In this document: in pieces, positions 7,966 to 41,923 of the stretch
How positions within the stretch are numbered: position 1 is the first letter of the stretch
How the letters are laid out: each line of letters opens with the position of its first letter
DNA from: Opitutaceae bacterium
GTDB lineage: Bacteria > Verrucomicrobiota > Verrucomicrobiia > Opitutales > Opitutaceae
DNA: 45,328 nucleotides
NCBI GenBank assembly: GCA_005792355.1
Contig: SXSC01000237.1
Coordinates: 1 to 45,328 of the forward strand
Reading direction: 5' to 3'
Position numbers and translations under genes: made by a program
Notes under the pieces: model-generated
What the model was told of the DNA's origin: nothing
The model's database searches: none
Seen by the model: only the letters and a program-made list of their open reading frames with translations

Positions 7966-8337
7966 ATGACCAGCCACCCTTACGCCTTCCTTGCCCTCTT
8001 TGCCGTGGTGGCGGTGGCCGTTCCGTTGGTGCTCCTGGGTGTCGCCCAGCTCTGGTTTCGATTCTTCCAACCCGCCAAGCCCAGCGCGGTGAAAAACGAT
8101 GTCTACGAGTGTGGCGTCGCACCGACCGGCGATTCGTGGATTCAATTCAAGGCGCATTATTACCTCTACGCCATTCTCTTTCTGATTTTCGACGTCGAGG
8201 TGCTCTTTCTCCTGCCGTTCGCCGTCGCGTTCACCGGGCTGCCCACCGGAGCGTTGCTGGCGATGCTCGTCTTCATCCTCTTGTTGGCCGAGGGGCTGGT
8301 CTGGGCCTGGCATCGCGGTCATCTTGAGTGGAAATAG
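7966..8337 (+). CDS. nuoA: NADH-quinone oxidoreductase-type subunit A, cluster 1
   Basis: A 123-residue membrane protein with three hydrophobic segments. It carries [12 protein letters not shown] (48-58) and [16 protein letters not shown], with the conserved acidic pair Asp76/Glu78 of NuoA. It sits at the quinone-site/membrane-arm junction of complex I together with NuoJ and NuoK. The ATG at 7966 is used; a TTG lies directly before it. It is the first gene of the A-B-C-D-I-H-J-K-L-M-M-N cluster, and nuoB starts 1 base after its stop. Confidence 0.93.
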
Positions 8338-8338
8338 C

Positions 8339-9001
8339 ATGAGCGACACCACCACCAGCCCTGAACCTGCGGTGCAGGTCCCCGTCATTTCCCAGGCCGA
8401 GCGCGACGAACTGCGTCGCCAGGGCATCCTCCTCACCAGCATGGAGGAGCTCTACAATTGGGGCCGCAGCCACTCCGTGTGGCCGCTCAATTTCGGGCTC
8501 GCCTGCTGCGCCATCGAGATGATCGCCGCCTCGATGGCCCGCTTCGACATCGCCCGGTTCGGCTCGGAGGTTTTCCGGCCGTCGCCCCGGCAGGCAGACT
8601 TGCTCATCGTGTCCGGCACCGTGACGAAAAAGATGACGCCCCAGGTCGTGCGCCTCTGGAATCAGATGCCCGAGCCCAAGTACTGCATCGCGATGGGCGC
8701 CTGCGCGATCTCCGGCGGTCCGTTCAAGCAGGGCTACAACGTCCTCAAGGGCATCGATCGCTTCATCCCGGTCGACATCTACATCCCCGGTTGCCCGCCC
8801 CGCCCCGAGGCGCTGCTGCACGGCCTCATGCAGTTGCAGGAGAAGATCCGTGGACAAAAAATTTCCGGGCCCGACGCCCCGCGTCATCTTCAACCCGACG
8901 CGACGTGCGAATATCCCGTCCCCGAGTTCGGCGAGCACGATTTGCTGCCGCCAAAGAATCCCGCGGTGTGGCAGCCGCCGGTCATTGTGCGCAAAGATTG
9001 A
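8339..9001 (+). CDS. nuoB: Complex I subunit B (N2 cluster), cluster 1
   Basis: A 220-residue protein that carries the terminal [4Fe-4S] cluster N2, which passes electrons to quinone. The four ligands are present: Cys56-Cys57 (ACCAIE), Cys122 ([10 protein letters not shown]), Cys152 (PGCPPRP). Compared with the second copy in the window it has about 45 more residues, at both the N-terminal part (Thr/Pro-rich) and the C-terminus. The ATG at 8339 follows the nuoA stop directly. Confidence 0.95.
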
Positions 9002-9014
9002 CCGCACCTCCGCG

Positions 9015-9683
9015 ATGCACTCTCCCGAACAAATTCGCGACCTCCTCCTCGCCCGCTTTCCGGGCGCCGAGGTCACCCTCGTGACCAATCCGGGACCTTC
9101 CGCCCAGCATTCGCTGCTGCTTGGCGCCAGCCATGCGGCCGATATGGCCGCGTGGCTCCGCGACGACCAAGCGCTGCGTCTCGATTATTGCTCCAATGTC
9201 ACCGGCATCGACTGGCCGGAAAAGGAAATCACCGAAACGACGAAGACCACCGTCCCCGATCCGGCGGGCGGCACGCCCAAGGTCGTCGAAACAAAAACCA
9301 AGCGGATCCAGCCCGGCTGCCTCGAGGTCGTCTATCATCTCTACTCGATGGCGCTGAAGCATGGACCGGTCATCATCCGGTTGCGCACGGGCAATCGCAC
9401 CGACCGTGTCACGCTCCCGTCGCTGACCCCCGTCTGGCGCGCCTGCGATTTTCAGGAACGCGAGGTCTTCGATCTCTACGGCGTAATCTTCACCGGCCAC
9501 CCCGACCTCCGTCGCATCCTGATGTGGGATGAGTTCAAGGACCACCCGATGCGCAAGGACTACGTCGAACCCGACGACTACGAGTGGGAGCCCACGCCGC
9601 ACGATGCGGTGCTCGCCAAGGCGAAGGCGCACTATCCGGCGGCGGCGGCGGCCGCGCCGGTGGCCGAAGGGCTAAAAAGCTGA
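9015..9683 (+). CDS. nuoC: Complex I subunit C, cluster 1
   Basis: A 222-residue NuoC (30-kDa subunit), part of the peripheral arm. The hallmark is the C-terminal [23 protein letters not shown] segment followed by HPMRKDY. Between the [12 protein letters not shown] strand and [10 protein letters not shown] there is a Thr/Lys-rich insertion of about 27 residues (roughly 75-101) that the copy in cluster 2 lacks. The C-terminus ends in an alanine run. The start at 9015 is chosen because upstream codons in frame overlap nuoB and have no NuoC similarity. Confidence 0.92.
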
Positions 9684-9693
9684 ACGGCTGACC

Positions 9694-10911
9694 ATGGAAT
9701 CCAATTTTCAGACGACGGCGGAAGAGAGGGCTAATTTCAGCTCTTCCGCCCTTCAGTCCTTCAGCCTCCCCAACCCCGGCGCCTCGGTGCGCGAGGTCCA
9801 CGACCCGTTTCACGGCGACTTGCTCGAGGTCTCGATGGGGCCGCATCATCCGTCGACGCACGGCGTCTTCCGGATGATCGTCACGCTCGATGGCGAGACG
9901 ATCGTTAAGCTAAAGCCCGTTTTCGGTTACCTGCACCGCAATCACGAGAAGCTCGGGGAGAACACGACCTACCTCGCCTCGATGCCGTACACCGACCGGC
10001 TCGATTACCTGAACTCGATGACGAACAACTGGGCCTACGCGATCGCCGTCGAGAAGCTCGCCGGTCAGGCCGTGCCCGAGCGGGCCGAATATCTTCGCGT
10101 CATCCTCGCCGAGCTCACCCGCCTGCTCAATCACACCTGCCTCGCCGGCTTCCTCATGCAGGACTGCGGCTGCAGCGGCACCCCGCTGATGTACGCGTTT
10201 CGCGAGCGCGAAAAAATCCTCGACCTGTTCGAGTCCCTCAGCGGCTCCCGGATGATGTGCAACTACCAGCGCTTCGGCGGCTGCCGCCTCGATGCCACGC
10301 CCGATTGGCTCGCCGCCGCGCAGCAACTGACCGACGGCTACGGTCGCTTCCTCGACGAGTACGAGACCCTGCTCACGGGAAATGAAATCGTGATGGCGCG
10401 CACGCAGGGGATTGGCGTGCTCAGCCCCGGCCTCGCCGTCAGTGCGGGCGTCACCGGCCCGATGCTCCGCGCCACCGGCGTCGATTACGATCTCCGCCGC
10501 GTCGACGGCTACGGGTTTTACCCGCGCTTCGAGTTTCGCGTGCCGCTGGGTGACCACGGCGACACCTACGACCGTTACATGATCCGCGTCCTGGAGATGC
10601 GGGAGTCGATCAAAATTCTCCAGCAGGCCTTCCGCAGCCTGCCCGCCGGGCCAATCATGGATCCCAAGGCGAAGCTCCGCGGCTTCCGCCCCAAGGCCGG
10701 TGAAGCCTACGGCCGGATCGAGGGGCCGAAGGGGGAAATCGGTTTCTATCTCGTCAGCGATGGCGGCCCCAACCCCTATCGCTACCGCGTGCGCCCGCCT
10801 TCCTTTGTCAACCTCACCATCCTCGAAGACATGTGCCTCGGCCAGACCGTGGCCGACGCCGTGATCATCCTCGGCAGCGTGGATATCGTTCTCGGCGAGG
10901 TCGACCGATAG
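9694..10911 (+). CDS. nuoD: Complex I subunit D (49-kDa, quinone site), cluster 1
   Basis: A 405-residue Nuo[14 protein letters not shown] (49-61) holds the conserved histidines of the quinone pocket, and DRLDYLNSM holds the quinone-binding Tyr. The C-terminus ends GEVDR, as in the family, where the final Arg is conserved from hydrogenase ancestry. The N-terminal 40 residues are unconserved. NuoC and NuoD are separate genes, not fused as in E. coli. A 146-base gap containing two hairpins follows before nuoI, the largest break in the first half of the cluster. Confidence 0.95.
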
Positions 10912-10944
10912 GTTTTCGCGAAGTTTTCGCGCAACGCGAAAACC
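10911..10944. repeat. Nested hairpin right after nuoD (cluster 1)
   Basis: GGTTTTCGCG (10911-10920) is the exact reverse complement of 10935-10944. A second copy of TTTTCGCG (10924-10931) can pair with 10935-10942 across a 3-base loop, so two mutually exclusive stems are possible. TAATTTT follows. This may be an RNA processing site, a weak terminator or a repeat element. A related but imperfect pair, GGTTTTC/GAAAACC, lies after nuoN at 20679-20701. Confidence 0.55.
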
Positions 10945-10996
10945 TAATTTTCCAATCAATCAAACTCAACTCATGACCTCCCAAGCTCCTCAGATC

Positions 10997-11036
10997 GATT
11001 CTCCGGCTCGGCGGAGAATCATTAGGGTTTTTTCGG
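10997..11036 (+). terminator. Terminator-like hairpin between nuoD and nuoI (cluster 1)
   Basis: GATTCTCCG (10997-11005) pairs perfectly with CGGAGAATC (11012-11020) across a 6-base loop, and a run of six T starts about 7 bases after the stem (11028-11033). It looks like an intrinsic terminator, although the T run is not directly adjacent. If functional it would lower expression of nuoI-N relative to nuoA-D. Confidence 0.45.
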
Positions 11037-11057
11037 AGTCTGCGGAGTAAGAACCTC

Positions 11058-11720
11058 ATGTTGGGAACAGGACTAATCAAGGGCCTCGGCGTCACCGCGA
11101 AGAACTTCGTGGGGAGTTTTCACGATCCCACCCGTCTCGTGACCGTGGAGTATCCCGAGCAGAAGACGAAACTCCCCGAGAACTACCGCAATTTTCCGTT
11201 TTTGGTTTTCGACGAGGAGCAGGACCCGCTGGGCACCCTGCGGTGTGTCGCCTGCCGGATCTGCGAAGCCGAGTGCCCGCCCCAGTGCATCTACATCGTG
11301 ATGGAGCGCGACGACAAGGGGAAGGCGATGAAGCGGCCCAAGGTGTTCGACATCGATATTTCCGTCTGCATGAGCTGCCAGATTTGCGTCGAGGTCTGCC
11401 CGTTCGACGCGATCAAGATGGATCAACAGTACGAGATCGCGGAGGCGGACCGTTTTCAGGCGCTGCTGCTGAACCGCGAGGCGCTCGCCAAGTCCAACCA
11501 GTACTACCATCAGATTCATCCCACCGAGGCCGCCGGGGTCGACGCCCTGTTGGCCGAGCAGAAGGCCAAACAAGCCGCGAGTCGCGCGGCCGCCGCCGCC
11601 GCGAAGTCGGCGGCCGTTCCGAAACCGGCCGCCGCCGCGACGCCACCGTCCGCTCCCGTCGCCCAACCGCCCGCCGCGCCCAGCGCGGAGGCCCCGAAAA
11701 ATCCGCCGGCCACCGCATGA
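11058..11720 (+). CDS. nuoI: Complex I subunit I (two [4Fe-4S] clusters), cluster 1
   Basis: A 220-residue 8-iron ferredoxin-like subunit with two binding motifs, CVACRICEAECPP and CMSCQICVEVCPF (clusters N6a and N6b). These receive electrons from the NADH module in the 14-subunit enzyme. No nuoE, nuoF or nuoG is present here, so NuoI is the likely docking point for ferredoxin. After about residue 165 there is an unusual Ala/Pro-rich tail of about 55 residues, which could be a flexible tether. The order D-I-H differs from the usual D-H-I order and from cluster 2. Its stop overlaps the nuoH start (ATGA). Confidence 0.94.
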   Translation: MLGTGLIKGLGVTAKNFVGSFHDPTRLVTVEYPEQKTKLPENYRNFPFLVFDEEQDPLGTLRCVACRICEAECPPQCIYIVMERDDKGKAMKRPKVFDIDISVCMSCQICVEVCPFDAIKMDQQYEIAEADRFQALLLNREALAKSNQYYHQIHPTEAAGVDALLAEQKAKQAASRAAAAAAKSAAVPKPAAAATPPSAPVAQPPAAPSAEAPKNPPATA

Positions 11721-13015
11721 GCCCTGTCTTACTCGATGCCGCCACCCGTGCCAGCGAGTGGACCAGCGCGGGCCTTCCCCACTCGCTGGCGCTCGCGGCC
11801 ACTTACGCTGATTCCACCCTGGAGCGTCTGCCAATTCTCGCCCGCGATCTGCTCACGGGCTGGCTCCCCGAGCCGTGGCGCTGGCTGGTCAACAGTCTCG
11901 TGGCGATTGTCACCGTCGTGCTCGTGTTCGCGACGCTGTTTGCCCTGCTCACCCTCGCGGAACGAAAAATCCTCGGCCGCGTGCAGAACCGACCCGGCCC
12001 GAACCGCACCGGGATACCCTTTACAAAACTCAAGCTCTTCGGTCTCGGACAACCGCTGGCCGACGGCATCAAGATGCTCACCAAGGAGGACATCGTCCCG
12101 CGGGCCGCGGATCAGGTCCTGCACTTTCTCGCCCCCGTCGCCCTGCTCGCCCTCTCGATTCTCACCTTTGCGGTGATTCCCTTCGGCCGGAATCTGCTGC
12201 CCGTCCACCTCGACGCCGCGGTGCTCTACTTCTTCGCCGCCGGCGCCGCCACCGAGCTCGCCGTCTTCATGGCGGGCTGGGCCAGCCGGAACAAATACTC
12301 CCTGCTCGGGGCCATGCGCGCGCTGGCGCAGATGATCAGTTACGAGCTGCCCCTGCTGCTGGCCATCGTCCCCGTCGTGATGCTCGCCGGCACGCTGTCG
12401 ACCAGCGGCATCGTGGAAAAGCAGGGCGGATGGCTGTTCGGTTTCCTGCCGCAATGGCACGTGTTCACGCCGTGGGGCTTCGCGGGTTTCCTGATTTTCC
12501 TGGTCGCGGCCCTCGCCGAGTCCAACCGCTCCCCCTTCGACTTGCCGGAGGCGGAGAGCGAGCTCATCGCCGGCCACCTCACGGAGTACTCGGGTTTCAA
12601 ATACGCCCTGTTCTTCATGGCGGAGTATTTCGGCATGTGCGCCCTCAGCGGCATGGGCGTGACGCTCTTCCTCGGCGGCTGGCAGGCTCCCCTCCCCTTC
12701 CTCGAATTCATCCCGTCCTATGCGTGGTTTGCCGCCAAGCTCCTCTCGCTGCTGCTGGTCTTCATCTGGATTCGCGCGACGTTCCCGCGCCTGCGGATGG
12801 ACCAGCTCACGCGCCTGGCCTGGAAGTTCCTCGTGCCACTCGCGTTGATCAACCTCGGCACAGCCGCTTTCTGGTCGCTCACCTCCGGCTGGGGCGGCGC
12901 CCTGCAGCTCGTGCGCTGGGCCGTCGCCCTCGCACTGGTGGCGGGACCGTTTTTCCTCATGGGCCGCAAACTCAGCGCCGGCGTCGCGCCGCGCACGTAT
13001 CGCTACGCGTCATGA
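11717..13015 (+). CDS. nuoH: Complex I subunit H, cluster 1
   Basis: A 432-residue membrane subunit that forms the quinone tunnel with NuoB and NuoD. Seen are LAERKILGRVQNRPGPN, QPLADGIKMLTKE, and AESNRSPFDLPEAESELIAGHLTEYSG with the conserved glutamates. It is about 90 residues longer than the cluster 2 copy, mainly because of an N-terminal extension of about 60 residues (including ATYADSTLERLPILARD) before the first conserved membrane helix. It starts inside the nuoI stop codon. Confidence 0.94.
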   Translation: MSPVLLDAATRASEWTSAGLPHSLALAATYADSTLERLPILARDLLTGWLPEPWRWLVNSLVAIVTVVLVFATLFALLTLAERKILGRVQNRPGPNRTGIPFTKLKLFGLGQPLADGIKMLTKEDIVPRAADQVLHFLAPVALLALSILTFAVIPFGRNLLPVHLDAAVLYFFAAGAATELAVFMAGWASRNKYSLLGAMRALAQMISYELPLLLAIVPVVMLAGTLSTSGIVEKQGGWLFGFLPQWHVFTPWGFAGFLIFLVAALAESNRSPFDLPEAESELIAGHLTEYSGFKYALFFMAEYFGMCALSGMGVTLFLGGWQAPLPFLEFIPSYAWFAAKLLSLLLVFIWIRATFPRLRMDQLTRLAWKFLVPLALINLGTAAFWSLTSGWGGALQLVRWAVALALVAGPFFLMGRKLSAGVAPRTYRYAS

Positions 13016-13157
13016 GATTTTTGAATTTTGCTTTTGGATTTTTGCTTGCGGGTACGCCGCTGGCGGTTGGCGGCGAAGATGGATCGGCCTCGCGGAACGC
13101 GCCGCCCCTCGAAAAATCCGGCTGGGCAAATCGAAATTCGAAAATCCAAAATCGAAA
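13016..13157. repeat. A/T-rich inverted-repeat filler between nuoH and nuoJ
   Basis: This 142-base gap starts with a T-rich run holding TTTTGGATTTT (about 13033-13043) and ends with its exact complement AAAATCCAAAA (about 13144-13154). A GC-rich centre lies between them. The composition is unlike the flanking genes. No gene is visible here. Confidence 0.5.
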
Positions 13158-13673
13158 ATGACCCTCGCCCTCCTCGCCATCGCGCTCTTCACGCTCACGA
13201 CCGCCACGGTCGCGATGGCGCTGCGCAATCTCATTCACAGCGCGCTGCTGCTGATTGCGAGCTGGGGTGGCATCGCGGCGTTTTATCTCTGGGCCGGGGC
13301 CGAGTTTGTCGCCTTTGCCCAGGTGCTGGTGTATGTCGGAGCGATCTCGATGGTCGTCCTCTTCGCCGTGCTGCTGACGCGGCAGTCCCGCGCCGATCTG
13401 GAAGTCGCCCCCGACGCCATGGGCCGGATCTTTCCCGCTTTAATCACCGGGGGCGCCGTGCTCGGCGTGCTGTTCGGGGCGATCATGAGCACGCCGCTTC
13501 GCCCCGCCGTCGGTCACGCCCCGTCAATTCCCGTGCGCGAACTCGGACTGCAACTCATGGGACCGCACGCCGCCGCCCTGCTCGTCGTCGGCGGTCTGCT
13601 CACGGTCGCGCTGCTCGGCGCCGTGGTGATTGCCTCGGTGGATCGCCGGCCGAACAAGGAGGACGCCTCGTGA
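13158..13673 (+). CDS. nuoJ: Complex I subunit J, cluster 1
   Basis: A 171-residue protein with five hydrophobic segments. The central EFVAFAQVLVYVGAISMVVLF is the conserved TM3 region of NuoJ, including the pi-bulge tyrosine and glycine that link quinone chemistry to the proton pumps. The C-terminus is short and charged (RRPNKEDAS). The nuoK start overlaps its stop. Confidence 0.93.
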   Translation: MTLALLAIALFTLTTATVAMALRNLIHSALLLIASWGGIAAFYLWAGAEFVAFAQVLVYVGAISMVVLFAVLLTRQSRADLEVAPDAMGRIFPALITGGAVLGVLFGAIMSTPLRPAVGHAPSIPVRELGLQLMGPHAAALLVVGGLLTVALLGAVVIASVDRRPNKEDAS

Positions 13674-13987
13674 TGCCCGGCCCGCTGCAACTCTGCCTGT
13701 TGTTTTCGAGCGCGCTCTTTTGCATCGGGCTCATCGGGGCGCTGTCGCGCAGCAACACCATCCTCGTGCTCCTCGGCATCGAGCTGATGCTGAACGCGGC
13801 GAACCTCAACTTCATCGCGTTCTGGCGCTTCGGCCCCGCGCCAGCCGCGGGCACGGGAGTCATTTTTGTAATTTTCTCCATCGCCGTCGCCGCCGCCGAG
13901 GCCGCCGTCGGTCTCGCCCTGGTGATCGCCATTTACCGCCACCAGAAAAATATCCGGCTCCAGGACGCCGTTCGCCTCAAAGGCTAG
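13673..13987 (+). CDS. nuoK: Complex I subunit K, cluster 1
   Basis: A 104-residue protein with three membrane helices. It keeps the two intramembrane glutamates of NuoK in LLGIELMLNAANLN and AVAAAEAAVGLAL. The ATG at 13673 is used; an in-frame GTG directly before it (13670) would add one residue. It lies in the proton-transfer axis between NuoJ and the antiporter-like subunits. A 146-base repeat-filled gap follows before nuoL. Confidence 0.93.
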   Translation: MPGPLQLCLLFSSALFCIGLIGALSRSNTILVLLGIELMLNAANLNFIAFWRFGPAPAAGTGVIFVIFSIAVAAAEAAVGLALVIAIYRHQKNIRLQDAVRLKG

Positions 13988-14133
13988 AAAAAAATGACCA
14001 AGGCCCAATTCCCAATGACCAAGGAGTCTTTCGCAATTCGCCTCGCGCGCGCGTCGCGGCGCGGCCATTGGTCTTTGGTCATTGGTCATTGGTCATCGGG
14101 CATTGGACGTTGGTCCTTGGGCATTGGTCATCC
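13988..14133. repeat. CATTGGTC-type repeat block between nuoK and nuoL
   Basis: The left end reads ATGACCAAGGCCCAATTCCC and repeats CCAATGACCAAGG. The right end (about 14070-14133) holds several near-tandem copies of TTGGTCATTGG and GGGCATTGG, the complement of the left end. The block can fold into a long imperfect hairpin. There is no credible gene in it; an in-frame reading through the block belongs to the reading frame upstream of nuoL. Confidence 0.65.
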
Positions 14134-20661: not shown

Positions 20662-20706
20662 CGTTGGATTCGCGTTGGGTTTTCACGCCGCACGAAAACC
20701 TGCAGG

Positions 20707-20735
20707 TTGACAGCAAGCGACCTGAGGTCTGTTTC
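20707..20735 (+). promoter_or_regulatory. Possible promoter of the nucleotidyltransferase-like gene
   Basis: A perfect -35 hexamer TTGACA (20707-20712) lies 38 bases before the GTG start. The -10 position 17 bases on is TGTTTC, a poor match, so the call is weak. The gene differs in composition from the nuo cluster and probably has its own promoter. Confidence 0.25.
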
Positions 20736-33002: not shown

Positions 33003-33121
33003 CCCATGGCCCCCATGATGAACCCACGCGCGTTCGGTTGTACGGTGTCTGTCTGGCGGACGCCACGGTCGATTCGCCGCACAACGTCGGCGGGACAGAC
33101 GCGCTGCAAAAGGAGCACCCC

Positions 33122-34347: not shown

Positions 34348-34670
34348 ATCTCCTGCAACTTCACCAACAGCCCGGCGTTTACCTCGTCGTCGCCGCGTTT
34401 CTCCTCGTAGTCGGCATCTATGGGCTGATCCGACGCCGGACCTTGATCGGCATGCTCATCGCCGGCGAACTGATCTTCTCCGCCGCCTCGCTAAATCTCC
34501 TGGCGGTGAATCGCTTTTTTGCGCCCGACCCCACGGTGGGCCAGATCTTCGTCCTCTTCATCATGGGCCTCGCCGCCGCCGAGGTTGCCATCGCCCTAAG
34601 CATCATCATCGCGGTTTACCGCAACTATCGCTCGATCCACTCGGGCGACATGTCGGAGCTGAAAGGCTAG
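34344..34670 (+). CDS. nuoK: Complex I subunit K, cluster 2
   Basis: A 108-residue three-helix protein. The two intramembrane glutamates are in MLIAGELIFSAASLN and GLAAAEVAIALSIIIAVYRN. It ends with ELKG, close to the end of the cluster 1 copy (RLKG). The gap that follows contains a dispersed palindromic element. Confidence 0.93.
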   Translation: MNLLQLHQQPGVYLVVAAFLLVVGIYGLIRRRTLIGMLIAGELIFSAASLNLLAVNRFFAPDPTVGQIFVLFIMGLAAAEVAIALSIIIAVYRNYRSIHSGDMSELKG

Positions 34671-34796
34671 CCAAGCCGCCGGGCAAGACCGCGATGAACG
34701 CCAAACCTCCTCTTCAAGTCTCGCTTGCAATCGCCAGCGGTCCCCCTGCCCGGCGGCTTAAGCAGCGCTGCGCGCGCCAGTTCGTCCCCGCCTTTC

Positions 34797-34870
34797 GGCG
34801 CCGACAAAGCGGCGCCCTCCGAAAGGAGACGCATCCCTTTTTTCGGAGGGCTGCGCTTTGTCGCAGCCGC
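34797..34870. repeat. Dispersed palindromic element, copy A (after nuoK)
   Basis: CCGACAAAGCGGCGCCCTCCGAAA (two blocks, 34801-34824) pairs with 34841-34862, which reads TTTCGGAGGGCTGCGCTTTG and continues, with two mismatches over 22 bases. The right part, GCTGCG CTTTGT CGCAGC, is itself a small hairpin. The same element with the arms swapped occurs at 44522-44592. It looks like a BIME/REP-type mobile repeat. It lies in a 288-base gap that separates nuoK from the MrpD-like genes. Confidence 0.8.
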
Positions 34871-34958
34871 GTATCGCCGGTAGTGATAACCGGAGCGCAC
34901 GGCCGCCGGTCAACCCAGTCATCCCAAAGCCCGCACTAGGAACTCGGAACCTGTGGAC

Positions 34959-36434
34959 ATGACTGCGCCCTCCGACCTCCGCCTCCTGCTGGCCATTCTC
35001 GCTCCGCTCGTCGGAGCGGGGCTGGTGATGGCCTCTGGCAAGCGCCCCAACCTCCGCGAGGCCTGCTCGTTCCTCGCCGCGGTGACGCTCTTTGGCGTGG
35101 TGATATCGCTAATCCCCGACGTCCTCGCGGGCCGCACTCCACGCTGCACACTTTTCGAGCTCCTGCCCGGTCTGAGCTTCTCCCTGCGCGCGGACCCCCT
35201 CTCAATGATCTTCGCGGTCGCCGCGTCGTTCCTCTGGATCCTTACGGTCTTCTACGCGGCGGGTTACATGCGCACCCTCGAGGAACACGCGCAGACGCGG
35301 TTCAACGCCTGCTTCGCCCTCGCCCTCTTCGGCGCGATGGGCTGCGCGTTCTCGGACAATCTTCTCACGCTCTATCTTTTCTACGAGATCGTCAGCATCA
35401 CCACCTACCCGCTCGTTGCGCACCATCAGGACGCCGAGGGTTACGAGGGCGGCCGGAAGTACCTCACCTACCTGACCACCACGGCCAAGGGCCTGATTCT
35501 CCCAGCCATGGTGCTGATCTATGTGCTCTCCGGCACGCTCGATTTCGCCACCAACGTCCACTCCGGCATTTTGCCCGCGAGCGCCCACAACGGCGTCATC
35601 ACCGTTCTCTACATCTGCTGCATCCTCGGTTTCGCCAAGAACGGCATCATGCCGCTCCACCACTGGCTGCCCGGTGCCATGGTGGCGCCCACGCCTGTCA
35701 GCGCGCTGCTCCACGCCGTCGCCGTGGTGAAGGTCGGCGTGTTCTCCACTGTCCGCGTGATGCTCCACGTCTTCGGCGTGGATCTCATGGACCGGCTCAA
35801 CCTCGGAATGCCCACCGCGTATTTTGTCTCCATCACGATTCTCGGCGCCTCCATCATCGCGCTGAGCAAGGATAACCTGAAGCTGCGACTCGCCTACTCC
35901 ACCGTCAGCCAGCTGTCCTATATTATCCTCGGTGTGGCCCTGCTCACCCCCACCGCCGTGGCAGGCGGGCTGGTCCACATCGCCAATCACGCGTTTTCCA
36001 AGATCACCCTGTTCTTCTGCGCCGGTGCCATCTACGTGGCCACGCACAAAAAGAACATCTCCGAGATGAACGGCCTCGGCCGCGCGATGCCTTGGACGTT
36101 TGGCGCTTTCTCCGTCGCCGCGTTGAGCATGATCGGCGCGCCGCCCGTCGCCGGATTCATTTCCAAACTCTATCTGCTGATCGGCGCCCTCGATGCCGGA
36201 GCCATCGGCATCATGATCGTGCTCGTCGCCAGCACGCTCCTGAACGCCGCCTATTTCGTGCCGGTAATCTACCACGGCTTCTTCGGCCAACCGTCCGCCG
36301 AAGACGCCCGCCATCACCACCACGAGGCGCCGCTCGCGATGGTGATCCCCCTCTGCCTCACCGCCGCAATCTCGGTACTCCTCGGCTTGTATCCTGATTT
36401 ATTCATGCAATTCGCCCTGGCTGTCGTGAAATGA
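34959..36434 (+). CDS. MrpD-like antiporter subunit, first copy, replacing NuoL in cluster 2
   Basis: A 491-residue proton-conducting membrane subunit closer to MrpD/NuoM-like antiporter subunits than to NuoL. TM5 Glu143 (LYLFYEIVSITTYPLVAHH) and TM7 Lys227 (GFAKNGIMPLHHWLPGAMVAPTPVSALLH) are both present. There is no C-terminal lateral-helix extension. The ATG at 34959 is used; a GTG two codons before it is in frame. It overlaps the 86-residue gene by 4 bases. Confidence 0.88.
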   Translation: MTAPSDLRLLLAILAPLVGAGLVMASGKRPNLREACSFLAAVTLFGVVISLIPDVLAGRTPRCTLFELLPGLSFSLRADPLSMIFAVAASFLWILTVFYAAGYMRTLEEHAQTRFNACFALALFGAMGCAFSDNLLTLYLFYEIVSITTYPLVAHHQDAEGYEGGRKYLTYLTTTAKGLILPAMVLIYVLSGTLDFATNVHSGILPASAHNGVITVLYICCILGFAKNGIMPLHHWLPGAMVAPTPVSALLHAVAVVKVGVFSTVRVMLHVFGVDLMDRLNLGMPTAYFVSITILGASIIALSKDNLKLRLAYSTVSQLSYIILGVALLTPTAVAGGLVHIANHAFSKITLFFCAGAIYVATHKKNISEMNGLGRAMPWTFGAFSVAALSMIGAPPVAGFISKLYLLIGALDAGAIGIMIVLVASTLLNAAYFVPVIYHGFFGQPSAEDARHHHHEAPLAMVIPLCLTAAISVLLGLYPDLFMQFALAVVK

Positions 36435-36691
36435 AACTGCTCCGCCTCATCGAATTTCTGCGCCGCCACCTCAAGACCGTCATCCGGGTCTGCCTCGCGC
36501 TGCTCGTGCTCCTCGTGCTCGTCGACGCGATTCCCTACTTCGTCGACAAACAGCACGCGCACACGAAGGCCGAGCACATCCCCGGTTTCTGGGCCGCCTT
36601 CGGGTTCGTCGCGTGTGTCGTGATAGTTCTCGTTTCCAAGGCGTTTGGCCACGCCGGGATCATGACCCGGGAGGATTATTACGATGAGTGA
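36431..36691 (+). CDS. Small two-helix membrane protein between the MrpD-like genes
   Basis: An 86-residue protein with two predicted helices (about 15-40, CLALLVLLVLVDAIPYFV; about 53-77, FWAAFGFVACVVIVLVSK) and a conserved-looking C-terminus GHAGIMTREDYYDE. I recall similar small proteins with PGFWxxFG and xREDYYD next to paired antiporter subunits in deltaproteobacterial gene clusters, so it may be a fixed accessory subunit of this complex. No established function. It overlaps both neighbours (4 and 8 bases), which implies stoichiometric translation. Confidence 0.8.
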   Translation: MKLLRLIEFLRRHLKTVIRVCLALLVLLVLVDAIPYFVDKQHAHTKAEHIPGFWAAFGFVACVVIVLVSKAFGHAGIMTREDYYDE

Positions 36692-38516
36692 TTTTCCCGC
36701 CATCATCGGCGCCCTGGCCTCCGACCTCTGGCCTCAGTCCTCCGGTTTCTGGCTCCACCCGTCCTTGATCCTGATCGTCGGCGGCCTCGTGCTGCCGCTG
36801 GTGCCCGCGCGCCTGCGCCAGGGCTGGCTGCTGCTCGTGCCCATCCTCACCTTCGCGCGCATCGTCGCGATGACCAAGGGCACGTTCGGTGAGGTCCACT
36901 TTCTGCAATTCACCCTGATCTTCGGGCGCGTGGATGCGCTGAGCCTGGTCTTCGCCTACATCATGGGGCTGATGTGCCTCCTCGGCTCGCTGTACGGCCT
37001 GCACGTCAAACGCGCCATCGAACACACCGCGGCGTGGATCTATGTCGCCGGTTCCCTCGGTGCCATCTTCGCGGGCGACTTGGTCACGCTCTTTCTTTTC
37101 TGGGAGATCATGGCGCTCTCCTCGGTTTTCCTGATCTGGTTTCGCGGACGCGACGAATCGCTCCGTGCGGGCTATCGTTATCTCCTCGTCCACATGGCGG
37201 GCGGCGTGGCCCTGCTCGCTGGCATCATGCTCCACTACCAGGCGTCGGGCAGCATGGCCTTCGCCGCCTTCGACGTGCAGCATCCCACCGCGGCGATCTA
37301 CCTGATCATGATCGGCTTCATCCTGAACGCCGCCGTGCCGCCGCTGCACGCCTGGCTGCCCGACGCCTACGGTGAGGCCACGTTCAACGGCTCCGTCTTT
37401 CTCTGCGCTTTTACCACCAAGACCGCCGTGTACGCGCTCATCCGCGGATTCGCCGGGATGGAAATCCTCGTGGTGCTCGGCGTCGTCATGGCCCTCTACG
37501 GCGTGGTCTACGCCGTGTTGGAAAACGACTGCCGCCGTCTGCTCGCCTATCACATTGTCAGCCAGGTCGGCTACATGGTGGCCGGCGTCGGCCTCGGCAC
37601 CGAGCTCGCGATCAACGGTGCCTGCGCGCACGCCTTCGCGCACATTCTTTACAAGGGCCTCCTCTTCATGGGCTGCGGCTCCGTGCTGCACATGACCGGG
37701 AAAAGCAAGTTCACGGAGCTCGGCGGACTCTACGCGAAGATGCCGTGGACCTTCCTGTTCACGCTCATCGGCGGACTCTCGATCTCCGCGTTTCCGCTCT
37801 TCAGCGGCTTCGTCAGCAAGTCGATGATCGTCCAGGCCGGCTTCGAGGATCACAAGCTCTGGGCCGCGTTCCTGCTGATGCTCGCCTCGGCCGGGACCTT
37901 CCTGCACACGGGCCTGAAGGTTCCGTACTTCATCTGGTTTGGAAAAAATCATTGCACCAAGGAAACCTGGGACCGCGCCGCCGAGCCGCCGTGGAACATG
38001 ATCACGGCCATGGCCGTCACCGCGTTTCTCTGCATCTTCATCGGCTGCTACACGCCGTACCTTTACCGGATGCTGCCCCACCCCGTGGACTATCATCCGT
38101 ACACGGCGTACCACGTTTCCGAGACGCTGCAGATTCTGCTCTTCACCGCCCTCGGCTTCTTCCTGCTGATCAAGAAACTGGAGCCGGAAGCCAAGATCAG
38201 CCTCGACCTCGACTGGCCCTACCGCATCGGCGGCCGCGCCTTCCTTTGGCTCGCGCAGAAACCCATCCAGTTTGTGGATAATTTCGTCGGCGAAATCTAC
38301 CGCGTGGGCGGACTGCTGCCGCTCATGGTCTCCGCGCGGTGGTCCGCTGTATTTGACAACCACGTAATCGACAGCGCGGTCGATGGCTTCGCCGCCACCA
38401 TTCGTAGTTTTGGCGGCCGGCTGCGCAGCGCCCAACGCGGCGCGTTGCAGGAGAACCTCACCGTGGCCTTCGGCGTCGGTGCGGTCCTCGTCCTCATCTT
38501 TGTCCTGATCTTCTGA
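36684..38516 (+). CDS. Second MrpD-like antiporter subunit with C-terminal extension, lacking the TM7 lysine
   Basis: A 610-residue antiporter-like subunit. TM5 Glu141 (LFLFWEIMALSSVFLIWF) and TM8 Lys246 (AFTTKTAVYALIRGF) are present. At the TM7 position nine residues before the Trp of the LHAWLPDAYGEAT motif, Asn215 stands where Lys is usual. After the pump core there is a TM helix (LQILLFTALGFFLLIK), about 94 soluble/amphipathic residues, and a last TM (AFGVGAVLVLIFVLIF). This is the layout of the NuoL lateral helix, so it may take the NuoL role. It starts inside the small gene. Confidence 0.9.
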   Translation: MSDFPAIIGALASDLWPQSSGFWLHPSLILIVGGLVLPLVPARLRQGWLLLVPILTFARIVAMTKGTFGEVHFLQFTLIFGRVDALSLVFAYIMGLMCLLGSLYGLHVKRAIEHTAAWIYVAGSLGAIFAGDLVTLFLFWEIMALSSVFLIWFRGRDESLRAGYRYLLVHMAGGVALLAGIMLHYQASGSMAFAAFDVQHPTAAIYLIMIGFILNAAVPPLHAWLPDAYGEATFNGSVFLCAFTTKTAVYALIRGFAGMEILVVLGVVMALYGVVYAVLENDCRRLLAYHIVSQVGYMVAGVGLGTELAINGACAHAFAHILYKGLLFMGCGSVLHMTGKSKFTELGGLYAKMPWTFLFTLIGGLSISAFPLFSGFVSKSMIVQAGFEDHKLWAAFLLMLASAGTFLHTGLKVPYFIWFGKNHCTKETWDRAAEPPWNMITAMAVTAFLCIFIGCYTPYLYRMLPHPVDYHPYTAYHVSETLQILLFTALGFFLLIKKLEPEAKISLDLDWPYRIGGRAFLWLAQKPIQFVDNFVGEIYRVGGLLPLMVSARWSAVFDNHVIDSAVDGFAATIRSFGGRLRSAQRGALQENLTVAFGVGAVLVLIFVLIF

Positions 38517-38528
38517 CGCCATCGCGCG

Positions 38529-40025
38529 ATGACGACACTTTCCACCATCACTTCCGGTCTCCCTCTGCTCAGCGTGCTGATCTTCAGCCCGCTGGTGGCC
38601 GCCGCTGGGGCCGCCCTGATTGGCAGCGAGCGCCTGCTGCGCTGGTGGACGCTCGCCTGCACCACCGGGATCGCGGCGCTGTCGCTGCCGCTCTGGTGGC
38701 GCTTCAATCCGGACACCGCTGATTTTCAATTTCGCGAGCAAGTCGCGTGGATTCCCTTCCTGAAGGTCGACTACAAACTGGGCATCGATGGAATCAGCCT
38801 CCTGCTCGTGCTGCTGACGACGCTGATCATGCCGCTCTGCGTGCTCGCGTCGTGGAACTACATCAAGCACCGCTTGAAGGAGTTCATGATCTGCCTGCTG
38901 GTCATGGAGACGGCGATGATCGGTGTGTTCTGCGCCCTCGATGCGATTTTGTTCTTCGTGTTTTGGGAGGCAATGTTGATCCCGATGACGCTGCTCATCG
39001 GTGTCTGGGGTGGACCGCGCAAGATCTACGCCGCGATCAAGTTCTTCATCTACACGATGGCGGGCTCCATCTTTCTCCTCGTCGCGCTGATCGCGCTGCG
39101 CATCAAGACCGGGAGCTTCGCCCTCGAAGGGATGATGGGCCAGAACTTCGAGCCCGGGCTCCAGCTCTGGGTCTTTGCGGCGTTCTTCCTGTCCTTTGCG
39201 ATCAAGGTTCCGATGTTCCCGTTCCACACGTGGCTGCCCGCCGCCCACGTCGAGGCGCCGACCGCCGGCAGCGTGGTGCTCGCCAGTGTGTTGCTCAAGA
39301 TGGGCACCTACGGTTTCCTGCGCTTCTGCCTGCCGATTACGCCGTACGCGACCCAGACGCTGGCGCCGTACGTCCTCGCCCTCTCCGCGATTGCCATTCT
39401 CTACGGTGGCTTCACGGCCCTCGCCCAAAGCGACCTGAAGAAGCTCGTGGCGTATTCCAGCGTGAGCCACATGGGCTTTGCCACGCTCGGCATCTTTGTT
39501 CTCAACGCCAGCGGCCTCGAGGGCGCCGTGCTCGTGATGATCAATCACGGCGTGACCACCGGCGCCTTGTTCATCTGTGTCGGCATCATCTATGAGCGCC
39601 TGCACAGCCGCGAACTGGCCGCCGCCGCCGGGATTGGGAAATTCATGCCCGTGTTCGCCGGCTTCTTCGGCGTGTTCTGCCTCTCATCCCTCGCCTTCCC
39701 CGGCACCAACAGCTTTATCGGCGAATTCCTCGTCCTCGCCGGCAGCTTCGCCCGCTCGCAGGTGCTGACGATCTGCGTCGTGCCCGGTGTCGTCATCGCC
39801 GCCGCGTACACGCTGCGGATGCTGCAACGGGTCGCTTGGGGCGGCACCAGCAACCCGGCGCACTCCGGGCTCAAGGACCTCGAGTTCCGCGAAATCGTCA
39901 CCCTCGCGCCATTGCTCGTCTTCGTTTTCTGGATCGGCCTCCACCCGCAACCGTTCGTCCGTGTCATGCACGCGACCGTGCTCCACCTCCTCCAGCAGGC
40001 CGGCCAGGCGGCCTCCGTGCCCTAG
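38529..40025 (+). CDS. nuoM: Complex I subunit M, cluster 2
   Basis: A 498-residue NuoM with Glu147 (FVFWEAMLIPMTLLIGVWG), Lys226 (FAIKVPMFPFHTWLPAAHVEAPTAGS) and the TM12 acidic residue (GTNSFIGEFLVLAG). All key residues are intact. The 12-base spacing to the upstream gene is short. The stop is followed by a 437-base repeat-rich gap before nuoN. Confidence 0.95.
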   Translation: MTTLSTITSGLPLLSVLIFSPLVAAAGAALIGSERLLRWWTLACTTGIAALSLPLWWRFNPDTADFQFREQVAWIPFLKVDYKLGIDGISLLLVLLTTLIMPLCVLASWNYIKHRLKEFMICLLVMETAMIGVFCALDAILFFVFWEAMLIPMTLLIGVWGGPRKIYAAIKFFIYTMAGSIFLLVALIALRIKTGSFALEGMMGQNFEPGLQLWVFAAFFLSFAIKVPMFPFHTWLPAAHVEAPTAGSVVLASVLLKMGTYGFLRFCLPITPYATQTLAPYVLALSAIAILYGGFTALAQSDLKKLVAYSSVSHMGFATLGIFVLNASGLEGAVLVMINHGVTTGALFICVGIIYERLHSRELAAAAGIGKFMPVFAGFFGVFCLSSLAFPGTNSFIGEFLVLAGSFARSQVLTICVVPGVVIAAAYTLRMLQRVAWGGTSNPAHSGLKDLEFREIVTLAPLLVFVFWIGLHPQPFVRVMHATVLHLLQQAGQAASVP

Positions 40026-40462
40026 CCGCAAACAAAGGACCACTCCTTGAACCACAATGGCACAGAGATCCGGCGGGGCGCAGCCGCAACCAAACTTGAA
40101 CTCCAATCCTTTGCACAGAAGGCAACGAAGCAAACGAAGCGAGCCGAGACGCATGACTCTTCATTCTCTTTGTTGCCTTCTGTTCAAATTTCGTGGCTTG
40201 AAGATGCACGTAGGAAAACAACATGTGCAGGCCTTGTTGCATGGGCCAAAACCGGCGCGAGTATGCTAACATCGGTTCGAGTCGTTCATCGTTGCGGCGA
40301 TTTGGCCGATTCATTTTCCAGGCACTTAACCACGGATTTCACGGATCAATCCCGGATGAAGACGGCCTTTATCCGTGCTGATCCGTGCCATCCGTGGTCA
40401 AGAATCAGCCGTTTCCCCTGTGGTTGCGACCGCCGCGATACGAACGATTCGGTCTAACGCCT
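40026..40462. repeat. 437-base gap in cluster 2 with two unrelated palindromic repeats
   Basis: Two families lie here. CAGAAGGCAACGAAG (40116-40130) pairs with CTTTGTTGCCTTCTG (40168-40182) in 14 of 15 positions. ACCACGGATTTCACGGATCA (40329-40348) pairs with 40379-40398 (18 of 20). Neither has a T-run behind it, and each could fold in RNA. No gene could be supported: the open frames either lack conservation or run into nuoN. Any promoter for nuoN would have to be here. Confidence 0.7.
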
Positions 40463-41923
40463 ATGTCACTTTCCTCGTTCCAGGCCTTTCTCCCCGAGCT
40501 CGTGCTGCTGGCCGGCGGACTCGTGCTTTTTTTCGTCACCCTCGGCGAAGGCCTGGCCCGGCGCGCGCGGCTCGTGGCGCTTGTCACCGCGCTGGTCACA
40601 TTGGTGACATGCGCTTGCTGCCTGGGCCAACAGGCGGTGCTCTTCAGCGGCGCCTACCGCGTCGATGCCTTCTCGCAGCTGCTGAAACTGATTCTGGCCT
40701 TTGGCTTCACCGCCATTCTGCTCCTCAGTGGGCGCCTCCCCGACATCCGTGAACGCATTCAGCCGGAATACTACCTCTTCCTCACCCTGAGCGTGTCCGG
40801 CCTCCTGATGCTCGTGAGTTGCGTCGATCTCATCGCGCTGGTCATCGCCCTCGAGTTGTCCTCCTTCCCGCTTTACCTGCTCGTCCCCATGCGCCGCGAA
40901 CGCGAGGGCCAGCGCAACCAGATGGAATCGGCCATCAAGTACATCATGTTCGGCGTCGCGGCCAACGGCCTCATGCTCTTCGGCCTGAGCTACCTGTTCG
41001 GCCTCACCGGCACGACGTCGCTCCCCCTCATGGCGGCCAATCTCAAGCCCCTCATCCAGTCCCCGCTCGCCGTGGTGGGTCTGGCCCTCGCGTTTTGCGG
41101 GCTCTACTACAAGCTGGCCATCTTCCCCTTTCACTTCTGGACGCCCGACGTCTACCAGGGCTCCTCAAACGAGACGGCGAGCCTCATCGCCTCGCTGCCA
41201 AAAATCGGCGCCGTCGCCGTCCTCGTGCGTCTGGTCTCGCTCGCGACGCCCGACCACGCAACCATTGCCCTGCTGCTCACGGGCCTGGCCATCGCCTCGA
41301 TGTTTTACGGCAATCTTCTCGCGCTCGGCCAGACGGACTTCAAACGGTTGCTCGGCTTCTCCGGCATCGCCCACGCCGGCTATGCCGTGGTCGGCTTCGT
41401 CACCCTCAGCGATCCGGGCTTCGCCGCGGCGCTGTATTACATCACCGGCTACATGCTGATGGTGCTGGCCTGCTTCGTGGTGATTTCACGCGTCTCGCGC
41501 GATGGCACCAACGTGGCCATCGCGGAACTCGCCGGACTTCATCGCCGGTCGCCGTTGCTCGCGGTGACGCTGTTGGTCGGCGTGTTCGGCCTCGCCGGCA
41601 TTCCACCCTTCGTGGGTTTCTTCGGCAAACTCTCGCTGCTGACCGCCGCCCTGGCCAAGGGACACCTCCTGCTGGTCATCATCACGATGATCAACGCCGC
41701 CATCGCGGTGTACTATTACCTCCGCGTGATCCGCGAGGCCGTGTTCGGCGAACCGGTGGGGAAAGCCGGACCCATCCCGCTCGATTCTTCCACCCGCGTG
41801 CTCTGCCTCGCGCTGATCATCGCCATCGTCGCTCTCGGCGTGGCACCCGCCGTGGTCATCGACGCCCTGGCGCATTCCCTGGCCGGACTAAATCAGCCGC
41901 TGGTGTGGGTTCCTGCGCAGTAG
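40463..41923 (+). CDS. nuoN: Complex I subunit N, cluster 2
   Basis: A 486-residue NuoN with Glu131 (VIALELSSFPLYLLVPM), Lys217 (GLYYKLAIFPFHFWTPDVYQG) and a Lys in the TM12 region (GFFGKLSLLTAALAKG). ATG 40463 is preferred; an upstream in-frame ATG (40385) would include part of a palindromic repeat. It closes the second cluster. Confidence 0.94.
   Translation: MSLSSFQAFLPELVLLAGGLVLFFVTLGEGLARRARLVALVTALVTLVTCACCLGQQAVLFSGAYRVDAFSQLLKLILAFGFTAILLLSGRLPDIRERIQPEYYLFLTLSVSGLLMLVSCVDLIALVIALELSSFPLYLLVPMRREREGQRNQMESAIKYIMFGVAANGLMLFGLSYLFGLTGTTSLPLMAANLKPLIQSPLAVVGLALAFCGLYYKLAIFPFHFWTPDVYQGSSNETASLIASLPKIGAVAVLVRLVSLATPDHATIALLLTGLAIASMFYGNLLALGQTDFKRLLGFSGIAHAGYAVVGFVTLSDPGFAAALYYITGYMLMVLACFVVISRVSRDGTNVAIAELAGLHRRSPLLAVTLLVGVFGLAGIPPFVGFFGKLSLLTAALAKGHLLLVIITMINAAIAVYYYLRVIREAVFGEPVGKAGPIPLDSSTRVLCLALIIAIVALGVAPAVVIDALAHSLAGLNQPLVWVPAQ

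Follow-up and report, generated by a model that had tools for sequence, protein, structure and literature searches.

Two NuoEFG-less complex I clusters flank ferredoxin and KorAB genes in an Opitutaceae bacterium and form a putative ferredoxin-linked energy island

Gene content of the locus

We analyzed a 45,328-nucleotide stretch of contig SXSC01000237.1, hereafter the window. As shown in Table 1, cluster 1 is followed along the plus strand by a ferredoxin gene, korA, korB, and cluster 2. Both clusters contained NuoA-D and NuoH-N and lacked NuoE, NuoF, and NuoG, as in 11-subunit complex I, with the NuoL place of cluster 2 being MrpD-like; each encoded four antiporter-like subunits. A preliminary description of this DNA had placed all the genes it named correctly, and the gene calls bore out its order D-I-H in cluster 1 versus D-H-I in cluster 2. 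Furthermore, local identity between the clusters was just 27-59% over A, B, C, D, H, I, J, and K, confirming that they are not a tandem duplication. The description was right that neither cluster encodes E, F, or G, but it overlooked a second NuoM in cluster 1, and the NuoL that it assigned to both clusters was found in cluster 1 only.

Table 1. Coordinates of the features in the analyzed region
Feature	Position	Strand	Remarks
Whole region	7966-41923		Opitutaceae bacterium, Verrucomicrobiota
Cluster 1	7966..20661	+	A-B-C-D-I-H-J-K-L-M-M'-N; without NuoE/F/G; four antiporter-like subunits; recurs in relatives
NuoA, cluster 1	start 7966	+	
NuoB, cluster 1	start 8339	+	
NuoC, cluster 1	start 9015	+	
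NuoD, cluster 1	9694..10911	+	GPHHPSTHG His and DRLDY Tyr retained
NuoI, cluster 1	11058..11720	+	two 4Fe-4S motifs (by eye); C-terminal tail Ala/Pro-rich
NuoH, cluster 1	start 11717	+	
NuoJ, cluster 1	start 13158	+	
NuoK, cluster 1	start 13673	+	
NuoL, cluster 1	14134..16149	+	671 aa; 26-residue insert, lateral amphipathic helix
NuoM, cluster 1	16146..17687	+	
Second NuoM (M'), cluster 1	17684..19198	+	TM7 Lys replaced by Leu
NuoN, cluster 1	19195..20661	+	
Ferredoxin	25259..25492	+	77 aa; one 4Fe-4S cluster domain; PF13370
KorA	25508..27295	+	fused gamma-alpha 2-oxoacid:acceptor oxidoreductase; TIGR03710, 555 bits (cut-off 483)
KorB	27546..28421	+	TPP-binding beta subunit; TIGR02177, 288 bits (cut-off 262)
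Cluster 2	29374..41923	+	A-B-C-D-H-I-J-K-P-s-L-M-N; without NuoE/F/G; four antiporter-like subunits; recurs in relatives
NuoA, cluster 2	start 29374	+	
NuoB, cluster 2	start 29745	+	
NuoC, cluster 2	start 30272	+	
NuoD, cluster 2	30835..31974	+	HPAAHG and SRIDY retained
NuoH, cluster 2	start 31974	+	
NuoI, cluster 2	start 33122	+	
NuoJ, cluster 2	start 33814	+	
NuoK, cluster 2	start 34344	+	
P, MrpD-like	34959..36434	+	PRK08375.1-1, 835 bits (cut-off 663)
s	36431..36691	+	86 aa; between P and L in relatives too
L-like, MrpD-like	36684..38516	+	PRK12668, 765 bits (cut-off 564); extended at the C-terminus; Asn in place of TM7 Lys
NuoM, cluster 2	38529..40025	+	
NuoN, cluster 2	40463..41923	+	

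Both NuoM reading frames of cluster 1 matched TIGR01972 best (458.7 and 427.6 bits; cut-off 263.8). The NuoL insert occupied 26 alignment columns that were filled in 14/14 cluster-1 rows and empty in 5/5 canonical NuoL. Judged by its sequence, cluster 1 thus bears the published marks of 2M complex I, namely the doubled NuoM and the helix insert of NuoL. In cluster 2, P and the L-like subunit scored at best 227.7 and 161.4 bits against the NuoL model, under its cut-off of 556. The NuoL place is taken by two MrpD-like subunits and the 86-aa protein s, as in descriptions of rhizobial "green" complex I. No NCBIfam or Pfam model matched s, and an AlphaFold prediction of the L-like subunit, made with no alignment supplied, had a mean pLDDT of 40.

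It is conceivable that the Mrp-like pair makes cluster 2 a sodium pump and cluster 1 a proton pump, so that together the complexes trade both gradients. Homologues of P and L with a small gene between them do occur in the Mrp antiporter operons of two relatives (G048 and G012). However, the L of these operons, whose other Mrp genes were named by eye, differs in its C-terminal part, and ion choice is not readable from these sequences; we regard this explanation as very unlikely.

The NuoD motifs containing the His and Tyr positions, which we take to be quinone-site residues, were kept in both clusters. Likewise, the TM5 Glu and TM7 Lys positions presumably mark ion-pumping antiporter-like subunits. 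The TM5 Glu was present in 8/8 of these subunits and the TM7 Lys in 6/8; the latter was replaced by Leu in all 13 rows of the second NuoM and by Asn in all 19 rows of the L-like subunit. The absent lysine in these two subunits counts against the favoured reading given below, that of two ion-pumping complexes. Its consistent loss from one pump subunit per complex also allows a direct check on whether having four such subunits gives more ions per electron pair.

The nearest solved structure to KorA was 6n2n (match over residues 3-576, E 8e-114), which, with 6n2o, we take to be the Magnetococcus two-subunit 2-oxoglutarate:ferredoxin oxidoreductase. The listed title is 'Pyruvate flavodoxin/ferredoxin oxidoreductase domain protein'. 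The predicted substrate of KorAB is most likely 2-oxoglutarate. A bifurcating role was dropped, since NCBIfam showed no flavin domain in KorAB.

Recurrence of the island in relatives

Next, we compared the locus with related genomes. The order cluster 1-ferredoxin-KorAB-cluster 2 was found on one contig in 6/150 family genomes, namely this one (G000), G006, G021, G043, G115, and G140; in G043, cluster 1 leaves the contig at C. Contig L028 showed the same order, covering cluster 1 from H onward and cluster 2 up to P. The head-to-tail arrangement of NuoN and ferredoxin, with tblastn matches 109-497 bp apart, was kept in the five relatives just named, in G123, and on L028 and L038. In G021, the spacing is short on both sides, with 126 bp from NuoN of cluster 1 to ferredoxin and about 55 bp from KorB to NuoA of cluster 2. 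The recurring order is more than chance. These results support the EFG-less, ferredoxin-linked island of the preliminary description, which is syntenic in some relatives. Its Kor genes are syntenic there as well, so the refuting condition that the description set for them does not apply.

Among the 23 Kor-bearing family genomes, Kor adjoined cluster 1 and/or cluster 2 in 11. A ferredoxin gene lay beside Kor in 11/11 of these and in 3/11 of the others, with one more cut (Fisher p 0.001). In 12/23, no nuo gene was seen beside Kor within the stretches inspected, several of them being at contig ends. Across the 150 genomes, and with shared descent ignored in these as in the neighbourhood counts, Kor and cluster 2 occurred together in 17 genomes versus 4.0 expected, and Kor and cluster 1 in 13 versus 9.7, which was not significant. 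Clusters 1 and 2 coincided in nine genomes versus 10.9 expected, i.e. not beyond chance, and 49 of the 63 cluster-1 genomes lacked both Kor and cluster 2 at the thresholds used. The Kor link is thus strong for cluster 2 and weaker for cluster 1. Accordingly, the earlier proposal that Kor feeds one or both complexes is supported in part only, with co-occurrence favouring cluster 2.

These numbers would also suit three blocks that are neighbours without a shared function, cluster 1 having merely settled beside a Kor-cluster 2 unit. In line with this, G003 has ferredoxin-KorAB-cluster 2 and no cluster 1 match at threshold, and G122 and G136 carry all three blocks on different contigs. Nevertheless, the conserved head-to-tail order speaks against such an accident, as does a separate arrangement of cluster 1 with ferredoxin-KorAB in G085, G107, and G114; we therefore consider it unlikely.

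Four kinds of Kor-complex I neighbourhood were observed, and they look independent. The first is the present island, whose KorA rows belonged to a single clade with 10 rows in a quick tree (SH-aLRT 86). In the second, that of G085, G107, and G114, ferredoxin-KorAB is divergent from cluster 1. The third has a different KorAB upstream of cluster 2 (G257), its KorA being 36% identical to the island KorA and 57% to the second KorA of our own genome. In the fourth, on myxobacterial contigs L048 and L049, KorAB adjoins a complex I that has three pumps and neighbouring D and H genes. Furthermore, other low-potential enzymes were seen as neighbours: pyruvate:ferredoxin oxidoreductase near cluster 1 in G085 and G017, and GltD-like and presumably NfnA-like genes around cluster 2 of G009. 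No recognisable ferredoxin-type neighbour was seen in 8/15 cluster-2 and 6/8 cluster-1 flanks inspected.

Electron donor and proposed mechanism

The genome was then searched for NADH-module genes. A lack of nuoEFG was rejected, as the genome encodes NuoE, the first part of NuoF, and a portion of NuoG: contig C369 carries canonical NuoB, C, and D followed by E and F, and C267 carries canonical G followed by H-L. The genes that the preliminary description had proposed searching for thus exist elsewhere, but as parts of a third complex I, the canonical one, and the refuting condition tied to them does not apply either. In 139/150 family genomes, NuoD was matched at canonical strength (E 1e-98 or better). 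Further NuoF-like matches were assigned to a partner of an A6 [FeFe] hydrogenase (C294), a partner of formate dehydrogenase (C136), a NuoE-NuoF fusion (C219), and an RnfC-like protein adjoining a gene for a microcompartment shell protein (C218, by eye); no RnfC exceeded its cut-off in the genome. NuoG matches lay on C267 (canonical), C294 (hydrogenase), C136 (formate dehydrogenase), C322, and C219, and no NuoG with additional 4Fe-4S clusters was found in or beside cluster 2 within the window.

The clusters could be NADH-linked by borrowing NuoEFG from the canonical complex, or a diaphorase of the hydrogenase or formate dehydrogenase type, as the genes above provide candidates for both. However, E and F follow the canonical D and G precedes the canonical H, and in five relatives, 3.6-4.1 kb separate canonical D from H, a distance that would fit E-F-G. 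NuoI and NuoD of clusters 1 and 2 were also just 31-49% identical to their canonical counterparts. Moreover, with menaquinone as acceptor at 180 mV, NADH was calculated from assumed potentials to pay for 2.7 H+ and ferredoxin for 3.8-4.7, so NADH would be too weak for four pumps; with ubiquinone, it would be enough (4.8 H+). Taken together, we judge borrowing to be a highly improbable explanation.

Instead, we consider it reasonably likely that the island encodes two ion-pumping ferredoxin:quinone oxidoreductases that take their electrons from reduced ferredoxin rather than from NADH. As both clusters lack the NADH module, ferredoxin and its reductase lie between them, and the arrangement is kept in some relatives, the membrane of this cell is probably energised by electrons from ferredoxin rather than from NADH. 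KorAB would oxidise a 2-oxoacid, most likely 2-oxoglutarate, and reduce the neighbouring ferredoxin, which would dock on the bared NuoI. Electrons would then pass through the iron-sulfur clusters of NuoI and NuoB to quinone at NuoD/NuoB/NuoH, and the large ferredoxin-quinone drop would power L-M-M-N in cluster 1 and P-L-M-N in cluster 2. The sequences themselves show gene content and order, the helix insert, the conserved quinone residues of NuoD, synteny, and the repeated neighbourhood with ferredoxin enzymes; the donor, the forward (oxidative) direction, the substrate, and the assembly of functional complexes are predictions. Of the two clusters, the second offers the firmer case for this reading.

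Alternatively, one or both complexes may run in reverse, with ion-motive force driving electron flow from quinol onto ferredoxin; KorAB would then make 2-oxoglutarate reductively, or the ferredoxin would serve biosynthesis. Proposals of reverse running exist for the 2M complex I of Nitrospira and for a Manganitrophaceae complex (PMC6606698, PMC9040806, PMC7784846). In principle, the enzymes can work in either direction, and a set of four pumps would suit the steep uphill step. On the other hand, 136/150 family genomes have a 2-oxoglutarate dehydrogenase E1 match at E 1e-100 or better. The oxidative step therefore exists in the family, a count that concerns this step and not the direction of Kor. 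Opitutaceae are regarded here as heterotrophs, which also argues against reversal, and we hold it to be decidedly unlikely.

The present genome gave no E1 match at E 1e-100. Absence of the dehydrogenase was nonetheless rejected: its first ~356 model positions lie at the very end of C104, where the match reaches base 17011 of the 17046 in this contig and the assembly cuts the gene off. Because the genome also holds three further POR-type proteins, one being the second KorA, the island KorAB is not the sole route.

The two separately evolved routes to a fourth pump, a doubled NuoM and an MrpD pair replacing NuoL, might be joined around Kor as one two-complex ferredoxin:quinone module with divided labour. 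The membrane arms would set this division, e.g. one proton- and one sodium-linked complex, or one forward and one reverse. We offer this as a speculative and improbable extension.

Comparison with known complex I forms

The island touches on two open questions, the electron donor of NuoEFG-less complex I and the use of a fourth pump, as a donor enzyme, a carrier, and two different four-pump complexes stand together in a single block found in several genera. Known complex I without an NADH module has three pumps. For that form, available descriptions propose ferredoxin reduced by PFOR as the donor; both present clusters likewise lack the NADH module, but an adjacent donor enzyme is not among the features those descriptions report, whereas the island has adjoining ferredoxin-KorAB. 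The main text of a 2025 complex I survey (PMC12361115) contains neither 'Verrucomicrob' nor 'oxoglutarate'.

Cluster 1 shares with 2M complex I (Chadwick et al. 2018, via PMC6606698 and PMC9040806) the second NuoM and the lengthened NuoL. PMC9040806 gives 26 residues for an insert in MrpD2, to which the 2M NuoL insert is similar in length and position; the lateral-helix insert of cluster-1 NuoL has that same length. In contrast, the clade-3 2M operon of Nitrospira retains an enlarged NuoG in the account of PMC6606698, whereas cluster 1 has no NuoG and adjoins ferredoxin-KorAB. Cluster 2 resembles the green form, likened here by description (PMC9040806, PMC7415380, PMC4967309, PMC5419562), in having an MrpD-like pair for NuoL and four antiporter-like subunits. 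The green form, however, is described as owning a NuoG with extra clusters (PMC4967309), and cluster 2 has no adjoining NuoE/F/G. Both ideas, the MrpD pair and the doubled NuoM, occur together in Complex_I_3 of 'Ca. Manganitrophaceae' as presented in PMC9040806, although that is one complex with five pumps, whereas here two separate clusters have four each.

A functional parallel comes from Campylobacterota, whose complex I is not NADH-linked but is supplied by 2-oxoglutarate:acceptor oxidoreductase; the partners there are Oor/Por and either flavodoxin or ferredoxin (PMC6682613). According to the same source, NuoX/Y take the place of NuoE/F in that complex, whereas the island clusters have no visible replacement and carry linked donor genes.

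Gene content and the third complex I

All of the genes named in the preliminary description were present in the window (G000:C194, 45,328 bases), which belongs to an assembly of 8.4 Mb in 416 contigs, 98% complete and 5.06% contaminated. Searches against NCBIfam assigned NuoA, B, C, D, I, H, J, K, L, M, a second M, and N to cluster 1. Cluster 2 was assigned NuoA, B, C, D, H, I, J, and K, followed by an MrpD-like subunit (P; PRK08375.1-1), an 86-aa protein (s) for which the NCBIfam search returned no match, another MrpD-like subunit (L-like; PRK12668), NuoM, and NuoN. The 23 gene junctions within both clusters comprised 13 overlaps of 1-16 bases, four gaps of 1-13 bases, and six spacers of 119-437 bases. 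Imperfect inverted repeats were observed inside operon spacers, and one kind recurred downstream of cluster 2; they are probably small mobile or palindromic repeat elements.

Between the clusters, the ferredoxin carried one 4Fe-4S cluster domain (PF13370), and KorA and KorB were assigned to the 2-oxoacid:acceptor oxidoreductase family by NCBIfam. The closest solved chain to KorA was 6n2n, and its nearest named relatives were MAGs of Verrucomicrobiota, several of which bear the label Opitutaceae or Opitutae. Cluster-1 NuoN and the ferredoxin gene were 4.6 kb apart in the window and 109-497 bp apart in eight relatives; the interval resembles an insertion peculiar to this lineage that carries defence or toxin-antitoxin genes. 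A gene for an ApbE family protein preceded cluster 1 by about 1.3 kb, and an ApbE-like protein adjoined cluster 1 in G054 (L106, by eye).

Features of the window discussed in the text
Feature	Positions	Strand	Remark
ApbE family protein	5714-6613		
Cluster 1	7966-20661		
NuoD, cluster 1	9694-10911		
NuoI, cluster 1	11058-11720		
NuoN-ferredoxin interval	20662-25258		
DUF6036/AbiEii-like nucleotidyltransferase	20750-21610		in interval
TIR-TPR protein	21960-24269	minus	in interval
Phd/RelE-like pair	within 20662-25258		read by eye
Ferredoxin	25259-25492		77 aa
KorA	25508-27295		
KorB	27546-28421		
Cluster 2	29374-41923		
NuoD, cluster 2	30835-31974		
NuoI, cluster 2	33122-33817		
P	34959-36434		MrpD-like
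s	36431-36691		86 aa
L-like	36684-38516		MrpD-like
Spacers with inverted repeats	13988-14133, 27296-27545, 34671-34958, 40026-40462		
Recurring repeat	near 44514-44592		

Both clusters had been described as lacking NuoE, F, and G; elsewhere in the genome, E, F, and G were found on C369 and C267 with a third complex I. C369 held the third of three NuoD copies alongside B, C, E, and the first part of F, and C267 carried part of NuoG together with H, I, J, K, and the beginning of L; therefore, E, F, and G exist here as part of an ordinary enzyme. Five relatives had canonical B, C, D, and most of H-N together, with a 3.6-4.1 kb gap between D and H. Some NuoD match was obtained in 148 of 150 family genomes and a canonical-strength match in 139. 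G140, which carries the full island (L091, L092) and is listed as 95% complete, gave no canonical-strength match (best 1.1e-61); it may have no complex I besides the island, or its assembly may lack the canonical one. Elsewhere in G000, an RnfC-like protein (L006:468-2522, C218) was followed by a bacterial microcompartment shell protein gene (by eye).

Conservation, neighbours, and origin of the island

In 150 family genomes drawn from a larger group, cluster-1-type NuoL was found in 63 (E 1e-190 or better) and KorA in 23 (E 1e-100 or better). The L-like subunit was found in 26 at no less than 60% identity; the matches of 12 further genomes at 45-50%, two of which were inspected, were assigned to the Mrp-operon kind. 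The proposed synteny of kor with complex I was borne out in relatives, as Kor adjoined cluster 1 and/or cluster 2 in 11 of the 23 Kor genomes. Six carried the full island on one contig (G000, G006, G021, G043, G115, G140), one had cluster 1-ferredoxin-KorAB up to the contig end (G123), one had ferredoxin-KorAB-cluster 2 (G003), and in three ferredoxin-KorAB diverged from cluster 1 (G085, G107, G114). The stretches read in the other 12, several at contig ends, showed no nuo gene adjoining Kor. A ferredoxin gene adjoined Kor in 11/11 of the former group versus 3/12 of the latter (G122, G017, G129; eight without, G014 cut; p 0.001, ignoring shared descent). The gap between KorB and cluster-2 NuoA varied widely, from about 55 bp in G021 through 2 kb in G115 and G043 up to 5.3 kb in L026.

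Among 60 KorA loci of named genomes, nine had complex I genes within the stretch covered. Five of these were Verrucomicrobiota loci (L025, L026, L028, L038, and L074), and the other four were myxobacterial or deltaproteobacterial contigs (L047-L050). In L048 and L049 the complex I genes formed a three-pump cluster in which D adjoins H, in L047 they formed a convergent cluster, and L050 showed only a NuoN end. The L-like subunit occurred in 15 of 387 sampled genomes of the phylum (E 1e-150). Cluster 2 was read in six genomes outside the family, one of which (G257, L148:1515-16235, another family of the order) had directly upstream a KorAB of another kind, with 57% identity to the second KorA of G000 (C278).

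Flanks were inspected for 15 copies of cluster 2 and eight of cluster 1. The neighbours of cluster 2 were KorAB (G257, G003), GltD-like and presumably NfnA-like genes on its two sides (G009), an upstream GltD-like gene (G136), hypC and hypD no more than 2 kb away (G122), and a FixC-like flavoprotein (G464, G280); no such neighbour was recognised in the remaining eight (G276, G210, G256, G060, G016, G106, G010, G013). Cluster 1 stood between PFOR with a GltD-like gene and ferredoxin-KorAB in G085, and beside PFOR in G017, with no such neighbour recognised at six of eight.

Shared descent being ignored, Kor and cluster 2 occurred together in 17 of the 150 genomes versus 4.0 expected (Fisher p 2e-11), Kor and cluster 1 in 13 versus 9.7 (p 0.17), and clusters 1 and 2 in 9 versus 10.9 (p 0.51); eight genomes had all three. 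In a KorA tree built by a quick method, the island rows included fell in a clade of 10 (SH-aLRT 86) within one of 11 (97), so that the island probably arose by a single assembly event. The island clade also takes in L027 (taken as G122:C56), where cluster 1, Kor, and cluster 2 are spread over different contigs; L029, the row of the 11 outside the 10, has no nuo. Rows with divergent cluster 1 and myxobacterial rows lay away from the island clade.

Membrane arms and quinone-site subunits

Alignment revealed a 26-residue stretch in the NuoL lateral helix of 14/14 cluster-1 rows (the window and 13 from relatives; 12 different, as two row pairs share a contig) versus 0/5 canonical NuoL of the family. 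In published 2M complex I, NuoL is lengthened and a second NuoM is present (PMC6606698), and the NuoL insert resembles in length the 26-residue MrpD2 insert (PMC9040806). Cluster 1 thus has both 2M marks examined. Cluster 2 lacks NuoL and has instead an MrpD pair, given in PMC9040806 as the mark of rhizobial green complex I; however, the NuoG reported for green complex I is absent, and we therefore call cluster 2 green-type rather than a green complex I. Homologues of P and L-like (46-52% identity), separated by a small gene, lay in operons carrying MnhB, C, and D in G048 and G012, and additionally E, F, and G in G012 (by eye); the small gene was 39% identical to s in G012 and matched by place only in G048. 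Together with the Nitrospira Mrp operon, where additional nuoM/L-like genes follow mrpD according to PMC7784846, this indicates that cluster 2 shares the set with Mrp antiporters.

The TM7 lysine was replaced by Leu in the second NuoM (13/13 rows) and by Asn in L-like (19/19 rows), same-contig duplicates being among the rows, and the TM5 Glu was present in all eight antiporter-like subunits. On the functional meaning that we assume for the TM5, TM7, and TM12 positions, these TM7 losses speak against the idea that four such subunits simply pump more. At the TM12 place of cluster-1 NuoL, the window has Gln and the other 13 rows have Lys. Canonical NuoM of the family was also missing the TM7 lysine in the three of five rows where the motif search matched (L125, L129, L130), and in these the TM12 glutamate was missing too, where read.

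The His and Tyr of NuoD, which we take to be quinone-site residues, were retained in 12/12 cluster-1 rows, 19/19 cluster-2 rows, and the window. The NuoD motif was HRGDEK in 5/5 canonical rows, HRNHEK in all aligned cluster-1 rows, and HRMHEK in all aligned cluster-2 rows; the latter two may be a signature of these EFG-less forms. NuoI of both clusters ended in an Ala/Pro-rich tail whose length varied and which some cluster-2 relatives lacked; it could serve flexible docking or simply reflect drift.

Direction and comparison with known complexes

In the simplest reading, electrons would pass from KorAB through ferredoxin and NuoI to quinone, with pumping. At 180 mV, the computed proton payment was 2.7 for NADH to menaquinone and 3.8-4.7 for ferredoxin to menaquinone, and 4.8 and 5.9-6.8, respectively, with ubiquinone; the midpoint potentials are our assumption, and the quinone of the organism may be either. 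The reverse direction appears in published proposals for 2M forms (PMC6606698, PMC9040806, PMC7784846), and the forward one in those for the 11-subunit Desulfitobacterium enzyme (PMC11238625) and for Campylobacterota complex I (PMC6682613). We consider the forward direction quite likely for the island and prefer it over the reverse.

Each component of the island is of an already known kind. Literature searches, with most subscription papers outside their scope, found no precedent for an EFG-less 2M/green-type pair around ferredoxin-KorAB.
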